IMG/VR virus record: IMGVR_UViG_3300044957_000965
Span: 1 to 28,985 of that record
Length of the DNA stretch: 28,985 bases
Source of the DNA: a virus
Reading direction: 5' to 3' (one strand)
Position numbers and translations under genes: made by a program. Shown here in pieces: positions 3,223 through 13,070 of this stretch (position 1 is its first letter; every line of letters begins with the position of its first letter). The notes below the pieces were generated by a model. That model was given only the letters and a program-made list of their open reading frames with translations. It was not told the origin of the DNA and did not search any database.

Positions 3223-3468
3223 ATGTTCACTCAGATTCCAATGATTCACACACTTTCCACTGCCGAAGAGTATCAGCTAGTCGTTGAGGATGTGTTTGAT
3301 GCGGATGAAACCGCAGCAGACATCTGTATCAATGAACTCTGTGAAGAAATAGGTATTGCCAACTGCCCAGAAAATGAAGAAGAGATTATGGAAGCTGTAA
3401 TTCATTACGAGGACTTCCTTGTAACGATTTATGACCACTATCGCAATGGGCTTGAGATAGTCTGCTAG
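3223..3468 (+). CDS. Hypothetical acidic protein (81 aa)
   Basis: An 81-residue, strongly acidic helical protein (DVFDADETAADICINELCEE) with three cysteines. There is no signal or membrane segment. A start at ATG 3241 is also possible, and neither has an obvious ribosome-binding site. Function unknown; strong acidity is common among small phage proteins that bind host factors, but nothing here shows that. Confidence 0.6.
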   Translation: MFTQIPMIHTLSTAEEYQLVVEDVFDADETAADICINELCEEIGIANCPENEEEIMEAVIHYEDFLVTIYDHYRNGLEIVC

Positions 3469-3529
3469 AATGATCGCATAGGAATGGCAGCGCCTCAAAG
3501 ACTCCATTGTTCACTCTATCCTTTGTTCA

Positions 3530-3757
3530 ATGAAAACCTACAAAGTTTCGTCTAGTGCTATTGAGAAGATTGCTGTTAGCGACAATGTTGCCAACATCAC
3601 CTTCAACAACGGTCGTGAGTATACCTATGAGATTGCAAATCCAGACTGGGTTTCTGCCCTTGAATCTGTGATTGCTGATCCAGAGGGTTCTGTCGGCAAA
3701 TTTGTAAATCGTTCCATTCGTGAAGACGAATCTCTCAAAATCGTCGTCACCGTCTAA
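3530..3757 (+). CDS. KTSC-domain-like protein (75 aa)
   Basis: A 75-residue protein spanning one small domain. The pattern VSSSAIEKIAVSDN at 6-19, ANITFNNGREYTYEI at 21-35, an amphipathic helix and GSVGKFVNRSIR at 53-64 fits the KTSC fold, in which a strand-strand-helix unit ends in a conserved basic segment. KTSC domains are found alone or fused to lysyl-tRNA synthetases and phage proteins. They are thought to bind nucleic acid, but their role is not established. Confidence 0.65.
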   Translation: MKTYKVSSSAIEKIAVSDNVANITFNNGREYTYEIANPDWVSALESVIADPEGSVGKFVNRSIREDESLKIVVTV

Positions 3758-5734: not shown

Positions 5735-5835
5735 TTTTTCACAAGTTATGTGGGAAAAGTGTGTAAAACTGTGAAAAAGTATGATAATAAAAATGTATTA
5801 AAAAACGTTATTATATGTTTTAGACAAATATATGT
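5735..5835. other. DnaA-box-like cluster with adjacent AT-rich stretch (origin candidate)
   Basis: Three 9-mers within 44 bases differ by one base from the cyanobacterial-type DnaA box TTTTCCACA: TTTTTCACA at 5735-5743, and on the other strand TTTTACACA (5760-5768) and TTTTTCACA (5770-5778). A fourth, with one extra C, lies at 5749-5758. They are followed by about 60 bases of nearly pure A/T. The clustering is seen in the sequence; an origin role is inference, and T4-like phages are not known to need DnaA. Confidence 0.3.
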
Positions 5836-5939
5836 TAACTAAATGTGGTTATATTAAATGTGAGTTCTTATAGCCGTCTTGGGCTGCATTCTACCATAAG
5901 ACTCCGAAATGTCAACACCCTCTGTGACACTTTTAGAAC

Positions 5940-6043: not shown

Positions 6044-6086
6044 TGGCACAAGTCTAGTTGACATGGCCATAGAAGTCTGATAGAAT
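6044..6086 (+). promoter_or_regulatory. Strong sigma-70-like promoter with TGGCACA box
   Basis: TTGACA (6058-6063), a 17-nt spacer and TAGAAT (6081-6086) match the consensus 6/6 and 5/6. TGGCACA (6044-6050) lies 7 nt upstream. Transcription from about 6093 would give a roughly 260-nt leader containing the GGTTAAG repeats before the gene at 6356. Confidence 0.65.
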
Positions 6087-6115: not shown

Positions 6116-6272
6116 GGTTAAAATTCATAAGACTTAACGTTAAGAACAGGTTAAGGCATAAGGTTAAGAACAGGTTAAGATCTCATAAGACTCACATGAT
6201 TAACAGATTCTTATGGTTTCCCTCCCATCCCCCCCTACAGTCTAATCATGATTTGGTTAAGATTGGGTTAAG
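6116..6272 (+). repeat. Upstream GGTTAAG heptamer cluster
   Basis: GGTTAA(G/A) occurs at 6116, 6149, 6162, 6173, 6255 and 6266, all in the same orientation. Related TTAAG and CATAAG motifs lie between. The same heptamer is packed far more densely downstream of the gene at 6356. Confidence 0.75.
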
Positions 6273-6355
6273 AGTGGACAGTTTCTAAAGTGTCACAATG
6301 GGCTTGATTTAACCGGCCAGCAAAGCTAATTTATGGGAGTCGCTGAGACATTCCA

Positions 6356-7027
6356 ATGCTCACCGCTTTCACCGAGGCCAGTTCTAACATTAAGACTGGC
6401 CCCATCCCTACTAGCACTTCCGACCGTGCTACATGTTGGACCGGCTGCCCTTTCTATGACAAAGGCTGCTATGCCAAGTCCGGCCCCCAAAATATACACT
6501 GGAACAAGGTATCTGCGGGTGAGCGTGGTTACGAATGGCAGGCATTTCTATCTCTGATTCGTAAGCTTCAACGTGGTCAATTGTGGCGGCACAATGTATC
6601 TGGCGACCTGCCAGTTGTATCCGATGGTGTCATTGACGGTGATAAAGTTGCACAGTTAGTTGATGCTAACCGTGGTCGCAAGGGATACACTTACACTCAT
6701 CATCCTTTGACGGATAGCAACTTAGGTGCCATTATGTACGCCAACGCTGCAGGATTTACTGTTAATGTTAGCACCGAATCGGTAGAAGTTGCCGATTCCA
6801 TCATGACAAAGCATGGCATTCCTGCCGTCGCTGTTGTTAACTCTAACAAGACTGATAGATTCTATCGCACAGAATCAGGTCGTAAAGTTATCACCTGCCC
6901 CGCCACAATTCATGACAACGTAACCTGCAAAACTTGTGGTTTGTGTCAACAAGCGGATCGCCAGTTTGTGATAGCTTTCCCTGCACATGGCAATGCTAAA
7001 AAGACAGTTAATGCGATTGTCGGTTAG
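6356..7027 (+). CDS. Cys-rich DUF7227/GP88-like phage protein (223 aa)
   Basis: A 223-residue soluble protein. Near the N-terminus it has a Cys cluster, CWTGC-PFYDKGCYA (about 27-39), with SGPQNIHWNKV next. In the middle are GQLWRHNVSGDLP, the helix VAQLVDANRG and KGYTYTHH. The C-terminal part carries a second Cys cluster (CPATIHDNVTCKTCGLCQQA) and ends FVIAFPAHGNAKK. This order matches a phage/bacterial family I know as DUF7227, resembling the mycobacteriophage L5 gp88 family. The cysteines probably bind a metal or an Fe-S cluster; the reaction is unknown. The gene is GC-richer than the structural genes, sits between two GGTTAAG repeat clusters, has its own promoter and ends at a strong terminator, so it looks like a self-contained accessory cassette. 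Confidence 0.75.
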   Translation: MLTAFTEASSNIKTGPIPTSTSDRATCWTGCPFYDKGCYAKSGPQNIHWNKVSAGERGYEWQAFLSLIRKLQRGQLWRHNVSGDLPVVSDGVIDGDKVAQLVDANRGRKGYTYTHHPLTDSNLGAIMYANAAGFTVNVSTESVEVADSIMTKHGIPAVAVVNSNKTDRFYRTESGRKVITCPATIHDNVTCKTCGLCQQADRQFVIAFPAHGNAKKTVNAIVG

Positions 7028-7036
7028 TGTTAGTCA

Positions 7037-7062
7037 GGGGCCACACTTGTGGCCCCTTTATT
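7037..7062 (+). terminator. Rho-independent terminator
   Basis: GGGGCCAC / GTGGCCCC form a perfect 8-bp GC-rich stem with a 4-nt loop (ACTT), followed by TTTATT, beginning 10 bases after the stop of the Cys-rich gene. Confidence 0.85.
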
Positions 7063-7133: not shown

Positions 7134-7216
7134 GGTTAAGGTTAAGATAAGGTTAAGACTTTAGGTTAAGATCGGGTTAAGGTTAGGTTAAGACTTTAGG
7201 TTAAGGTTAGGTTAAA
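7134..7216 (+). repeat. Dense GGTTAAG heptamer array
   Basis: In about 80 bases GGTTAAG starts at 7134, 7140, 7151, 7164, 7175, 7186 and 7199, with variants GGTTAGG at 7181 and 7205 and GGTTAAA at 7210. Copies overlap or are spaced 5-13 bases, all on the + strand. Purpose unknown. Confidence 0.8.
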
Positions 7217-7230
7217 GTCTTATGAGACCG

Positions 7231-7346
7231 ATCAGAATACGTATCAGTATCAGTAGCTGATCATGATACGTATCAGTATCAGTAGCTGATTAGAATACGT
7301 ATCAGTCTCAGACACCGATCAGAATACGTATCAGTATCAGTAGCTG
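7231..7346 (+). repeat. Four tandem 29-bp iteron-like repeats
   Basis: Exactly four 29-base units run head to tail: 7231-7259, 7260-7288, 7289-7317 and 7318-7346. The first and last are identical, the second differs at two positions, and the third is diverged in its right half. Each contains the palindrome ATACGTAT, extended to TGATACGTATCA in unit 2, and three carry TATCAGTAGCTG. The array ends 26 bases before the -35 of the promoter at 7373, so a regulator or replication initiator could bind it. Confidence 0.85.
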
Positions 7347-7372
7347 ATCCGTAAGATTATTGGGTGAACCGC

Positions 7373-7401
7373 TTGACACAATCGCGCCGGGATATTAGAT
7401 T
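7373..7401 (+). promoter_or_regulatory. Sigma-70-like promoter downstream of iterons
   Basis: TTGACA (7373-7378), a 17-nt spacer and TAGATT (7396-7401) match the consensus 6/6 and 4/6. The predicted transcription start is about 7408, the first possible ATG of the following gene. Confidence 0.5.
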
Positions 7402-7407
7402 AGAGTC

Positions 7408-7845
7408 ATGCCAGCAACTTCGTCTGGCGCTGCCGTAGTTATCATGGCCCAATTTTCAGATCTGCTGCTGGCCGCCAAAGCCACCACTAGGCTATCCCAT
7501 GAGGGTGATCAATTTAAGGCTCTACAAATAGCGAGCGACCTTACTGAGATTTTCTTTGCCGGCTCTGCCAACATTGGTTCAGATAATCCGTCAATCTGGG
7601 CAATCTGCCATAAGGCTTCATATGGGAACATTAAGTTGGGGCTTCACTCAGCACAGGCATTAGCAGCTACCGTTGAAGCAATGCTCAGCATTCGCATCCT
7701 TGGCCGTGGGCCGGTTTCCCGCATAAGTAGAAAGGCATTAATCGGATCGGCCAAAGCCTGGGGCCATCACCCGGCCAAGGCTATTGGCAAAGCCTCCACT
7801 AAAAGGCTAGGTTACTGGGCAGGGGGGATCCGGACCATCCCATGA
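7408..7845 (+). CDS. Orphan hypothetical protein (145 aa, or 133 aa from 7444)
   Basis: The frame is open from ATG 7408. Since the promoter predicts transcription starting there, translation would be leaderless, or would use ATG 7444 (MAQFSDLLLAAKATTRLSHE; 133 aa). Residues up to about 95 look like amphipathic helices (FKALQIASDLTEIFFAGS; LHSAQALAATVEAML). The tail is basic (SRISRKALIGSAKAWGHH; then STKRLGYW), suggesting nucleic-acid binding. No family is recognised. GC content and use of GCC/CTG codons differ strongly from the baseplate genes. Its place directly behind an iteron array suggests a repeat-binding or self-regulating protein, but that rests on position only. Confidence 0.45.
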   Translation: MPATSSGAAVVIMAQFSDLLLAAKATTRLSHEGDQFKALQIASDLTEIFFAGSANIGSDNPSIWAICHKASYGNIKLGLHSAQALAATVEAMLSIRILGRGPVSRISRKALIGSAKAWGHHPAKAIGKASTKRLGYWAGGIRTIP

Positions 7846-7854
7846 AGCCCATAC

Positions 7855-7894
7855 GGCCTATCAGCAATCTTAATATAAGGATTGCTGATAGGCC
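7855..7894 (+). terminator. Long perfect hairpin downstream of orphan gene
   Basis: GGCCTATCAGCAATC (7855-7869) and GATTGCTGATAGGCC (7880-7894) form a perfect 15-bp stem with a 10-nt loop, beginning 10 bases after the stop at 7845. No T-run follows, so it may protect an mRNA end or be a recognition site instead of an intrinsic terminator. Confidence 0.55.
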
Positions 7895-7940: not shown

Positions 7941-8143
7941 CTATATAAAAACTTTGGGTCCCTCCAAGCTATAAAACTTTAAAATTGCGATGTATATAAG
8001 AACTTCATAAAAAAAATTTTCCCAAAAAAAATCAGAATATATGTAAAAAAATTCATGAGACAACCAAACTATAACTCCATTCAAAATTTCTTTTTAAATC
8101 GTTATTTGGAAGCGTCTTATATTTCCATTACACTTTTTGAAAT
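7941..8143. other. AT-rich intergenic stretch without recognisable genes
   Basis: About 200 bases of A/T-rich sequence with A-runs. It contains an imperfect early copy of the terminator-repeat start (TATAAAACTTT near 7970). The only open frame (8055-8180, 41 codons) runs into the terminator stem and is not convincing. Confidence 0.5.
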
Positions 8144-8257
8144 TATAAAACTTTTAGCCACAAAAAAATTCCCCAGGTAAAACCAGGGGAAATCCTTTTT
8201 TATAAAACTTTTAGCCACAAAAAAATTCCCCAGGTAAAACCAGGGGAAATCCTTTTT
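8144..8257. terminator. Tandemly duplicated bidirectional terminator (2 x 57 bp)
   Basis: Two identical 57-bp units (8144-8200, 8201-8257) plus a 7-bp start of a third. Each has the hairpin TTCCCC-A-GGT / ACC-A-GGGGAA with an AAA loop. On the minus strand the stem is followed by seven Ts, ending transcripts of the gene at 8267-8755. On the plus strand it is followed by ATCC and a T-run, so it also works from the left. Confidence 0.85.
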
Positions 8258-8266
8258 TATAAAAAA

Positions 8267-8755
8267 TTATGCTCCTGGTTTAGGAATTCCTGGATCGTTA
8301 TATTGATCATAATTATCCTTCTTTTTACGTTCAGGATTTATAAGAAAGCCCTTTCTTCTCAACTCACCACGTTTTGTGAAAAAGGGTGTCTTGGGAACTT
8401 TGATTGTTTGATACATTGTTTCCATAATACTCTCTCTCCATTCTTCACTCATACTTGCCATAATTGCTACCGCTGCTTCTTGGGTATCAGCATATCCTTC
8501 ATCAAGTAAGTGTGAAAGAATTACTTCATAAATCTCATACTCATCAGCCAAGCCAAGCTTTGGTCCTTTCAACTTACTCAGAGCAGCATCTCTTTCTCCT
8601 GATACATTTGTATCTTTTGCAAGGTTACGAATCTTTCCCTGAGTTGTGGCAAGCTTTCCTGCGGCCTGATGAGCTGTTGGATTGATTTCAAAGCTAGCCC
8701 CCTCATAAACATTCTGATAAGCTGCCGTCAAAAAGTTAAGTTCTTCTGGAGTCAT
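8267..8755 (-). CDS. Conserved cyanophage protein with DEGYADT motif (162 aa)
   Basis: This 162-residue protein is the only minus-strand gene in the window. Residues 71-110 contain a segment with SHLLDEGYADT and MSEEWRESI, a helix pair I recall as a recurring module in several T4-like cyanophage proteins (usually within larger hypothetical or virion proteins). The N-terminus is helical (MTPEELNFLTAAYQNVYEG). The C-terminus is basic and Pro-rich (PERKKKDNYDQYNDPGIPKP), probably disordered. A minus-strand late promoter (8777-8783) precedes it and a duplicated terminator follows, so it is likely a late, possibly virion-associated protein. Function unknown. Confidence 0.75.
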   Translation of the reverse strand: MTPEELNFLTAAYQNVYEGASFEINPTAHQAAGKLATTQGKIRNLAKDTNVSGERDAALSKLKGPKLGLADEYEIYEVILSHLLDEGYADTQEAAVAIMASMSEEWRESIMETMYQTIKVPKTPFFTKRGELRRKGFLINPERKKKDNYDQYNDPGIPKPGA

Positions 8756-10773: not shown

Positions 10774-11175
10774 ATGCCAGTTGCGGTTTCTAGAGCCTTT
10801 AAAGACATTAGTTTATCTTTCAAGAGGCATCCAATCACTAATGACATTGTTCTTCTTCGCAATGAAGCTGCGATTAAGAATGCTGTCATCAATTTGGTTA
10901 GAACTGTGAACGGTGAGAGATTTTTTAATTTTAGAATTGGAACTGGATTAGAAGGATCACTTTTTGAACTTCAAATTCCCGAAGTTAAATTCAATTTAGA
11001 AAATCAAATTACATCTCTTTTAGTAAATTTTGAACCCAGAATTTTTTTAAGATCTGTATCAGTAAGATTTCCAGAAGATTCTAATGATTTGGAAGTAAAT
11101 GTCGTTTATGATATTGTTGGAATTTCAGTACCTACACAAGATATAAGCTTTATATTACAACCAACAAGAGTATAA
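10774..11175 (+). CDS. 25: Baseplate wedge subunit gp25
   Basis: A 133-residue protein of the gp25-like family. In T4, gp25 sits at the inner baseplate, joining the wedge to the tail hub and sheath start. The signature N-F-E87-P-R89-I (the EPR motif), the preceding helix (AAIKNAVINLVRT), the FNFRIGTGL region and the final LEVNVVYDI strand all fit. Length is typical (T4: 132 aa). The late promoter sits just upstream, and its stop overlaps the gp6 start (TAATG). This is the first gene of the baseplate operon. Confidence 0.92.
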   Translation: MPVAVSRAFKDISLSFKRHPITNDIVLLRNEAAIKNAVINLVRTVNGERFFNFRIGTGLEGSLFELQIPEVKFNLENQITSLLVNFEPRIFLRSVSVRFPEDSNDLEVNVVYDIVGISVPTQDISFILQPTRV

Positions 11176-13070
11176 TGGCATTCACTCAATTTACGAATCT
11201 TGATTTTGATCAAATTCGTCAGTCAATCAAAGACTATCTACGATCTAATAATAATTTTACAGATTTTGATTTTGAAGGATCAAATCTGTCAATTTTAATT
11301 GATACTTTAGCTTATAATACTTATGTGGTATCATATAATCAAAACGCAGTTGCAAATGAAGCATTTCTGGATAGTGCAGTACTCCGAGAAAATGTAGTTT
11401 CTCATGCCAGAAAAATTGGTTATGTTCCACAATCTGCAAAATCATCCAGAGCGATTGTAAATATCTTTGTTCCTCTTCCAATTTCCGGAATTAGCAGTTC
11501 AACTCCAACAGTTACACTCAAAGCAGGTCTAGTTGCTGTTGGAAGTGCCAGTGATCTTAACTATACATTCTGCATTCCTCAAGATGTTACTGTTCCAGTG
11601 TCAAATGGATATGCAGAATTTGATGAATTAGTCGTTTATGAAGGAACTTATGCTACAAAAAACTTTTTGGTGGACAATTCTCAGGCAGATCAGAGATATA
11701 TTCTTCCAAATGCAAAAATTGATGTCTCCACATTGGTTGTAAAGGTCAGTCCAACTGAAAATGACACCGTTTTACAAGAATATACTAAAATTGATAACAT
11801 TGTTGGGCTTACAACAACCGCAAATAAGTACTTAATTCAAGAAGTTTCCGGTGAAAAGTATGAAATTGTGTTTGGGGATGGTATAATTGGCAAAAAACTT
11901 CAAAATAATAACTATATTCGCACCAGTTACATCATTACAAATGGAAAATCAGCAAATGGAGTGAAAAATTTATCATTTATAGGAATACTTTTAGACAATT
12001 CAAGCAATTTTATCAATCCATCTACAGTAACAATTAATACTTTAGACTCTTCCAACAATGGAGCTGACATTGAAAGCATCAAATCCATTAAAAACTTTGC
12101 TCCAAGACTCTATTCTTCTCAATTTAGAGCAGTTTCTGCAAATGACTATGAGGCAATCATTCCCTATATCTATCCAAATGCAGCATCTGTATCGGCATAT
12201 GGTGGTGAAGAGTTATCTCCTCCACAATATGGAAAGGTTTATATCGTAATTAAGCCAAAGAGTGGAGAAGTTCTATCTCTTTATACTAAGAAGGAGATTT
12301 TGAATAATCTTAAGAAGTATAGTATTTCTGGAATTGTTCCTGAAATCATTGATATGAAGTATTTGTATGTTGAATTAGATTCTACAATCTATTATAATCC
12401 AAATTTTGTTACAGATATTGATAATTTACAATCTGACATTATTAATTCACTGACAACTTATTCTGAAGAAACTGAAACAAATCAGTTTGGTGGAAGAGTC
12501 AAATATAGTAAGGTTGTAAGCTTGATTGATAACGTGAATGTATCAATTACCTCAAACATTACGAAAATAAAAATCCGAAGAAATTTAAATGCATTAATTG
12601 CGAAAAATGCTCAATATGAACTTTGTTTTGGAAATAAATTCCATCCAAAGGAAAATGGATATTCCATTAAATCTACTGGGTTTAAGATTTCCACAAATCA
12701 AAATATTTTATATCTGAGTGATATGCCAAATTCTGATAAAAAATCTGGCAAAATATTCTTCTTCTATTTAGATTTAATTGGAACTCCTGTAGTTGTAAAT
12801 CCAAGTGCAGGAATTGTAAATTATGAAACTGGAGAGATTTTTATAAGTGCCGTAAATATTGTTTCTACAGTAAAATCAGATAATGTTATTGAAATTCAAG
12901 CAATACCAGAATCTAACGATGTTATCGCTTTAAAAGACTTATACATAAATTTAAATATTGGTTCAAGTAAGTTCACGCTCATTAAAGATATTATGTCATC
13001 TGGAGATAATGTAGCTGGAACCAGATTTACAACCACTTCAAGCTTCCTTAATGGGTCATATACAAGATGA
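11175..13070 (+). CDS. 6: Baseplate wedge subunit gp6 (631 aa)
   Basis: 631 residues (T4 gp6: 660), with the baseplate-J-like architecture. A helical N-terminus contains FDQIRQSIKDYLRSNNNFTD and NLSILIDTLAYNTYV. A beta domain includes VSGEKYEIVFGDGIIGKKL, a signature of this family. A middle region with FRAVSANDYEAIIPYIYP (around 315) precedes the dimer region. gp6 forms the inner ring of the baseplate together with gp7, gp25 and gp53. Its last four bases overlap the start of the giant gp7-like gene (ATGA). Confidence 0.92.
   Translation: MAFTQFTNLDFDQIRQSIKDYLRSNNNFTDFDFEGSNLSILIDTLAYNTYVVSYNQNAVANEAFLDSAVLRENVVSHARKIGYVPQSAKSSRAIVNIFVPLPISGISSSTPTVTLKAGLVAVGSASDLNYTFCIPQDVTVPVSNGYAEFDELVVYEGTYATKNFLVDNSQADQRYILPNAKIDVSTLVVKVSPTENDTVLQEYTKIDNIVGLTTTANKYLIQEVSGEKYEIVFGDGIIGKKLQNNNYIRTSYIITNGKSANGVKNLSFIGILLDNSSNFINPSTVTINTLDSSNNGADIESIKSIKNFAPRLYSSQFRAVSANDYEAIIPYIYPNAASVSAYGGEELSPPQYGKVYIVIKPKSGEVLSLYTKKEILNNLKKYSISGIVPEIIDMKYLYVELDSTIYYNPNFVTDIDNLQSDIINSLTTYSEETETNQFGGRVKYSKVVSLIDNVNVSITSNITKIKIRRNLNALIAKNAQYELCFGNKFHPKENGYSIKSTGFKISTNQNILYLSDMPNSDKKSGKIFFFYLDLIGTPVVVNPSAGIVNYETGEIFISAVNIVSTVKSDNVIEIQAIPESNDVIALKDLYINLNIGSSKFTLIKDIMSSGDNVAGTRFTTTSSFLNGSYTR

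Follow-up and report, generated by a model that had tools for sequence, protein, structure and literature searches.

The DNA analysed here, the 28,985 nucleotides of IMG/VR record IMGVR_UViG_3300044957_000965 (hereafter the window), is a contig from a T4-like freshwater cyanophage in which four phased 29-bp sites stand next to an array of 11-bp repeats. This composite is present in two unrelated kinds of cyanophage, the T4-like phage of the window and cyanosiphoviruses resembling S-CBS4, and represents the main new finding of the analysis. The best reading, on which our confidence is evenly balanced, is that the 29-bp units form an operator array for a DNA-binding protein met by both phage types, probably encoded by the host, and that this protein acts on the adjacent promoter.

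The arrays lie in an island of higher G+C content (5.7-8.0 kb) that comprises two short cassettes, the DUF7227 gene and a small gene starting at 7444, each with its own promoter. The island is followed by gp25 and gp6 type genes (10774-13070), an order that is the same in phages DSL-LC03, S-RIM32 and S-SRM01. The features of the region are as follows.

5735 to 5778, no strand assigned: four one-mismatch cyanobacterial DnaA boxes within 44 bp; the boxes at this place in the relative L001 are exact (TTTTCCACA)
6058 to 6086, plus strand: promoter TTGACA-17-TAGAAT (11/12) upstream of the DUF7227 gene
6137 to 6272, minus strand: further GGTTAAG copies (6149, 6162, 6173, 6255 and 6266) at 11/13-bp spacing, upstream of the DUF7227 gene
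6356 to 7027, plus strand: DUF7227 gene (PF23872, E 2.5e-85), first gene of the island, with no assigned role
7036 to 7057, plus strand: intrinsic terminator after DUF7227
7134 to 7216, minus strand: Pho-box-like array of seven exact copies of GGTTAAG on the plus strand (CTTAACC on the minus strand), directly upstream of the 29-bp array
7229 to 7349, plus strand: 29-bp tandem array, with four units starting at 7229, 7258, 7287 and 7316
7373 to 7401, plus strand: sigma-70-type promoter TTGACA-17-TAGATT (10/12) for the downstream gene
7410 to 7428, plus strand: leader hairpin GCCAG-N9-CTGGC in the predicted 5' UTR, as read from the sequence
7444 to 7845, plus strand: gene for a small helical protein of 133 amino acids with a basic tail (145 amino acids if started at 7408)
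7855 to 7894, plus strand: inverted repeat GGCCTATCAGCAATC...GATTGCTGATAGGCC after the 7444 gene, terminator-like but lacking a T tract, as read from the sequence

The closest relatives, with DUF7227 in the same place, are Synechococcus phage DSL-LC03 and the IMG/VR contigs L017-L025. In L001, L017, L019 and L021, DUF7227 is followed by the gene of a small basic protein that ends in ASxxRLxxWxxxxN. A GP88 (PF17338) or DUF7227 (PF23872) gene is consistently found in the islands of unrelated cyanophages (L148 6522-7397, L013 3014-4117, L124 4631-5362, window 6356-7024 and L131 2-718), and members of both families display, close to the N terminus, a short motif of the CP-x-C type. An hhalign comparison did not establish that DUF7227 and the GP88-type siphovirus proteins are homologous (probability 1.4), and the structure model of DUF7227 was unusable (pLDDT 55, with fold matches to TIM-barrel-type enzymes at a TM of about 0.3). 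In S-SRM01 (L124) a GP88-type gene (PF17338) replaces DUF7227, and its island contains a different repeated word, ATTCTCGACGAG, at 970-1020, 3440-3545 and 6190-6310. An imperfect palindrome, GACAGTTY-N3-AAASTGKCAC, is located upstream of the island promoters at 5926, 5982, 6277 and 7098 of the window, and occurs in the DSL-LC03 relatives as well.

The 29-bp array was detected by TRF as a 29-bp period repeated 4.1 times between 7230 and 7349 with a score of 184, compared with a score of 62 for the best array of period 15-60 in 60 shuffled windows. Dinucleotide shuffles predict 0.01 matches to a degenerate pattern of the unit, and the window contains four. The unit starts are 29 bp apart, and the four exactly phased units described in the initial annotation are thus borne out. 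Its further statements, that the first and last units are identical and that each unit carries a common word, hold equally: units 1 and 4 are the same in the 29-bp register from 7230, and ATACGTAT occurs four times in the array, once per unit. Each unit consists of a 23-bp near-palindromic core with the consensus TGATCANRATACGTATCAGTATC, built of the words TGATCA-TGATAC-GTATCA-GTATC, and of a 6-bp spacer that reads AGTAGC or AGACAC. Unit 4 is followed by a partial fifth unit, TGATC, and a 6-bp autocorrelation is visible in the array. No Rfam family matched above threshold near the array. This is a real repeat array just upstream of a promoter, and one that is probably bound by a protein.

Directly upstream, and 12 bp from the 29-bp array, is a second array (7134-7216) that is absent from the initial annotation. 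Its GGTTAAG copies follow one another at spacings of 6, 11, 13, 11, 11 and 13 bp, and it holds three of the five exact GGTTAAG pairs at 11 bp found in the window, compared with none in 100 shuffles. With the Pho box defined as at least two CTTAACCT-type repeats at an 11-bp period, this array would qualify as one, and it resembles the Pho-box consensus of the cyanobacterial phosphate regulator SphR/PhoB, in which CTTAACCT repeats are separated by 3-bp linkers (PMC1906773). The boxes of the window point the opposite way to the gene and outnumber those of host Pho promoters. The 29-bp unit itself is not a Pho box, as no CTTAACC is present in the units and the array lacks CTTAACCT direct repeats with a 3-bp linker. 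In vitro, some cyanophage promoters are bound by host PhoB, but the same study reports that Pho boxes predicted in phage genomes are unreliable (PMC10976474).

Searched elsewhere, as the initial annotation had proposed, the 29-bp unit was found in S-CBS4-like cyanosiphoviruses and not in known phages, plasmids or cyanobacterial genomes. In IMG/VR only L027 and L108/L109 match the degenerate unit pattern, apart from a near-identical twin of the window. The four units of L027 are spaced 29, 29 and 30 bp apart, and their cores are on average 81% identical to those of the window, versus 35% for the 6-bp spacers. Genes are shared among L027, L108/109, L008 and L013 and also with the cyanosiphovirus S-CBS4, and the group is therefore unrelated to the T4-like phage of the window. 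A scan for GGTTAAG at an 11-bp period retrieved 29 contigs, many of them with S-CBS4-like phage genes. The 29-bp register recurs in L137 (steps 29 and 29), L140 (355/442/471/500/529) and L148 (8010/8097/8126/8155), and in all three the phased array abuts CTTAACCT boxes with an 11-bp period and 3-bp linkers, L148 having 12 consecutive exact CTTAACCT pairs. In the GGTTAAG-selected contigs, every strong core match is no more than 300 bp from a GGTTAAG pair (9/9), and none was obtained in 20 rounds of shuffling. When the siphovirus form of the core was used as the query, six contigs were returned, all from the S-CBS4-like group. The single-motif loci of an earlier 17-mer scan (L007, L010, L015 and L016) were discarded as chance-like, with no array around them.

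The same 23-bp core at a 29-bp step is thus shared with the S-CBS4-like phages, and the arrays of L027, L137, L140 and L148 also resemble that of the window in standing near a DUF7227 or GP88 gene and in adjoining CTTAACCT arrays (3/4 loci). They differ in the core variants GATTCG and CCGTATCC, in the unrelated phage type that carries them and in their position, which is upstream of the GP88/DUF7227 gene, whereas the window array comes after DUF7227. Moreover, some 0.6-1 kb separates them from the next family gene, and they do not sit right at a promoter. A literature search found no description of these S-CBS4-like 29-bp arrays. The recurrence in two phage types could reflect recombination between phages sharing a host, as opposed to independent retention, and this would still require the module to be useful in the window phage or to have arrived there recently.

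Among the T4-like cyanophages themselves, the locus often carries tandem arrays built of other units, so that the initial annotation, which knew of no such array in this group, was wrong in general. In L059, L074, L085, L092 and S-SRM01, arrays with non-coding units of 20-35 bp are located as in the window, in the same island before gp25, but their unit sequences are unrelated to that of the window. The array of L085 lies 63 bp before a near-consensus promoter. Altogether, 42 tandem arrays of various units were found in 205 kb of island sequence compared with 4 in 436 kb downstream, a difference that is partly accounted for by the richer non-coding DNA of the island.

The TTGACA that had been noted downstream of the array is indeed present, at 7373, 23 bp after the array and with a 17-bp spacer to TAGATT, an arrangement consistent with a sigma-70-type promoter (TTGACA, 16-18 bp, TATAAT). 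Because promoter-like matches in the region number nine, against 7.0 expected by chance, use of this promoter is suggested by its position and by the conservation of both hexamers in the twin contig. The ATG at 7444 is a likelier start of the downstream gene than 7408, since the leader hairpin (7410-7428) would otherwise fall inside the gene and the relatives also have leader hairpins, L001 and L017 showing comparable inverted repeats.

Comparison of the 7444 product with Pfam and PHROGs gave no match, and none with PDB entries was significant; the structure model of the product is all helix (pLDDT 43). Sequence searches among viral contigs retrieved no relatives except in the twin, and the best match among all ORFs of the fetched loci was the syntenic L021 gene (E 0.18). 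A family profile scored 10.5 bits on the protein, compared with at most 7.9 in 2000 shuffles, which is suggestive only. The C-terminal motif ASxxRLxxWA is common to the 7444 protein and the DSL-LC03-type gene that follows DUF7227, and the end of the protein, ASTKRLGYWAGG, resembles the ASxxRLxxWxxxxN end of the relatives. The 7444 gene is therefore the probable counterpart of the fast-evolving gene for a small basic protein that follows DUF7227 in the relatives. A specific tie between the array and this gene was rejected, as the siphovirus arrays sit upstream of GP88/DUF7227-type genes. The relation of the array to the promoter-proximal GATACGCTGATCATTCAGG element of the relatives is at word level only.

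The layout had been likened to that of iteron-regulated initiators or partition systems. What stands of this comparison is a repeat array just upstream of a promoter, with a 29-bp phase that recurs; no initiator or partition protein was found, given the lack of Pfam, PHROG and significant PDB matches for the 7444 product. Iteron replicons combine tandem direct repeats of about 17-30 bp, as seen here, with an adjacent Rep gene, which could not be recognized in the 7444 protein by those same comparisons. No ParA/ParM/TubZ-type NTPase and no ParB/ParR/TubR-type binder was detected with Pfam in the seven ORFs between 4174 and 9584, nor were par families detected with PHROGs in the same set excluding the 7444 start. 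The window resembles iteron-type plasmid origins in having a small gene close to direct repeats about 20-30 bp long, with DnaA boxes in relatives, but it differs from them in the lack of a Rep and of an exact DnaA box and in showing no similarity to 72,556 plasmids. Iterons of known phages or plasmids were discarded, as no significant array match was found in 50,697 phages or in those plasmids. A strict scan of genome contigs with a 22-bp unit pattern, which weaker single sites would escape, gave four scattered matches, none cyanobacterial. A Rep/iteron or Par system is thus not supported, although the 7444 product may be a Rep too diverged for profile detection.

The twin contig (L002/L014) is 99.7% identical to the window over 6.9 kb and keeps the array. 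Its unit 2 lacks the 6-bp word GTATCA, which results in a spacing of 29/23/29 and implies that strict 29-bp phasing is not indispensable in this phage. The point changes of the twin are clustered at 7291-7392; the -35 and -10 hexamers remain intact, and the downstream gene reads the same in both contigs throughout its coding sequence. The loss in unit 2 and the clustered changes indicate that the array region is changing fast.

In the operator reading, the four units would be four sites for one sequence-specific DNA-binding protein, with the 6-bp spacer setting the 29-bp step. Together with the Pho-box-like array, they would form the control region of the 7373-7401 promoter, from which the small, fast-evolving 7444 gene would be expressed. 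Since unrelated cyanosiphoviruses have the same core and step, likewise paired with Pho-box arrays, the binder would most likely be a regulator of the picocyanobacterial host; alternatively, both phages may carry the regulator. An operator or enhancer is favoured by the surrounding host-regulator sites, by a core that is kept while the spacer varies freely at a fixed step, and by a promoter 23 bp further on. Several observations argue against it, namely the lack of a cyanobacterial genome match, the position of CTTAACC on the strand opposite to the gene, which is an unusual Pho-box orientation, the broken step of the twin, the distance of the siphovirus arrays and the unreliable prediction of phage Pho boxes. 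The array, the contrast between its core and spacer, its recurrence at the same step, its place beside CTTAACCT arrays, the promoter and the DnaA-box enrichment in relatives are computed results; binding, a host-encoded binder, control of the promoter with its sign, and any effect on replication are what we infer from the sequence, which cannot tell activation from repression.

The DnaA-box clusters in the relatives make a role in replication the foremost rival. The island would then be a replication origin or control region, the units being iterons for an initiator or a host protein (DnaA with partners) and the promoter giving a priming transcript as at T4 R-loop origins; we consider this unlikely. 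It is favoured by the distribution of TTTTCCACA, the cyanobacterial DnaA box (PMC4674748). In the complete genome of DSL-LC03 (OR003938), 7/10 such boxes are at 80123-80579, within the same island, and all five boxes of S-RIM32 are about 5 kb before gp25. Across 88 related loci there are 103 boxes per 272 kb upstream of the neighbouring gene and 4 per 425 kb downstream; a non-redundant set yields 79 versus 4, and the reversed-word control 2 versus 5. The four one-mismatch boxes in 44 bp of the window, about 1.5 kb upstream of the 29-bp array, are in line with such a role; however, no exact TTTTCCACA box is present in the window, and no initiator was found. In DSL-LC03 the locus is not marked by a switch in GC skew. 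Since the replication machinery of T4-like phages can be expected to differ from that of S-CBS4-like phages, a shared initiator site is unlikely unless a host factor is involved.

Two further explanations are less likely than a role in replication. The arrays might be decoys that soak up host SphR/PhoB, DnaA and LexA early in infection, expression of the adjacent gene being secondary. This is improbable: titration would call for a copy number that is high relative to the protein, and the window has only four units, placed at promoter distance. It would nevertheless agree with some siphovirus islands, where up to 12 consecutive exact CTTAACCT pairs, versus two or three repeats in host Pho promoters (PMC1906773), and perfect LexA-type palindromes (TAGTACAAATGTACTA) inside GGTTAAG arrays or beside 29-bp units are found. 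Even more improbably, the repeats could be functionless by-products of replication slippage in fast-changing non-coding DNA, an explanation that fits the many unrelated tandem units of the locus (42 versus 4), the 6-bp word lost in the twin and the 6-bp autocorrelation. Slippage leaves unexplained the occurrence, in unrelated phages and with differing spacers, of one and the same 23-bp core, 29-bp step and CTTAACCT neighbour, and this composite in two kinds of cyanophage is the strongest argument against a neutral product.

Extending the operator reading, it is possible, if doubtful, that T4-like and S-CBS4-like lytic cyanophages share a single-copy hub of cis-elements, in which phased 29-bp sites for a host factor are combined with arrays for host regulators (SphR Pho boxes, with LexA and DnaA boxes in relatives), and that early expression or replication is set by this island, which would sense or titrate the physiological state of the host. 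Should a protein bind the sites, they would offer a concrete way into the question of how regulation in picocyanobacteria is sensed or taken over by freshwater cyanophages. That two unrelated phage types have the same sites suggests a factor common to both, which may be recoverable by affinity purification. The DnaA-box clusters in islands of T4-like cyanophages raise the question of replication start or sequestration of host DnaA, and a literature search for DnaA boxes in cyanophages found no cyanophage study.

Several minor observations concern the same islands. Many T4-like cyanophages have clusters of 4-9 copies of TTTTCCACA in the non-coding island that precedes gp25 (OR003938 80123-80579; KU594606 60807-61880; L017, L019, L025, L036, L042, L044, L053, L060, L094 and others), with hardly any copies downstream. 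Perfect LexA-type palindromes of the form TAGTAC-N4-GTACTA, identified with the cyanobacterial LexA consensus (PMC3091678), lie within or beside the S-CBS4-like arrays at L108 1533, L008 8817, L138 12019, L153 9236, L158 12413, L159 11892 and L135 2954. Fur-box-like sequences, GATAATGATTCTC and GAGAATCATTCTC, recognized by pattern alone, occur near the arrays of siphovirus islands (L108 1680-1690, L149 6936-6990 and L137 247). In the window, a perfect 57-bp tandem duplication (8143-8264) contains an intrinsic terminator for the minus-strand gene at 8267-8755. The loop of the DUF7227 terminator (7036-7057) is inverted in the twin (CACTTG to CAAGTG), as if template switching between the stem arms had flipped it.
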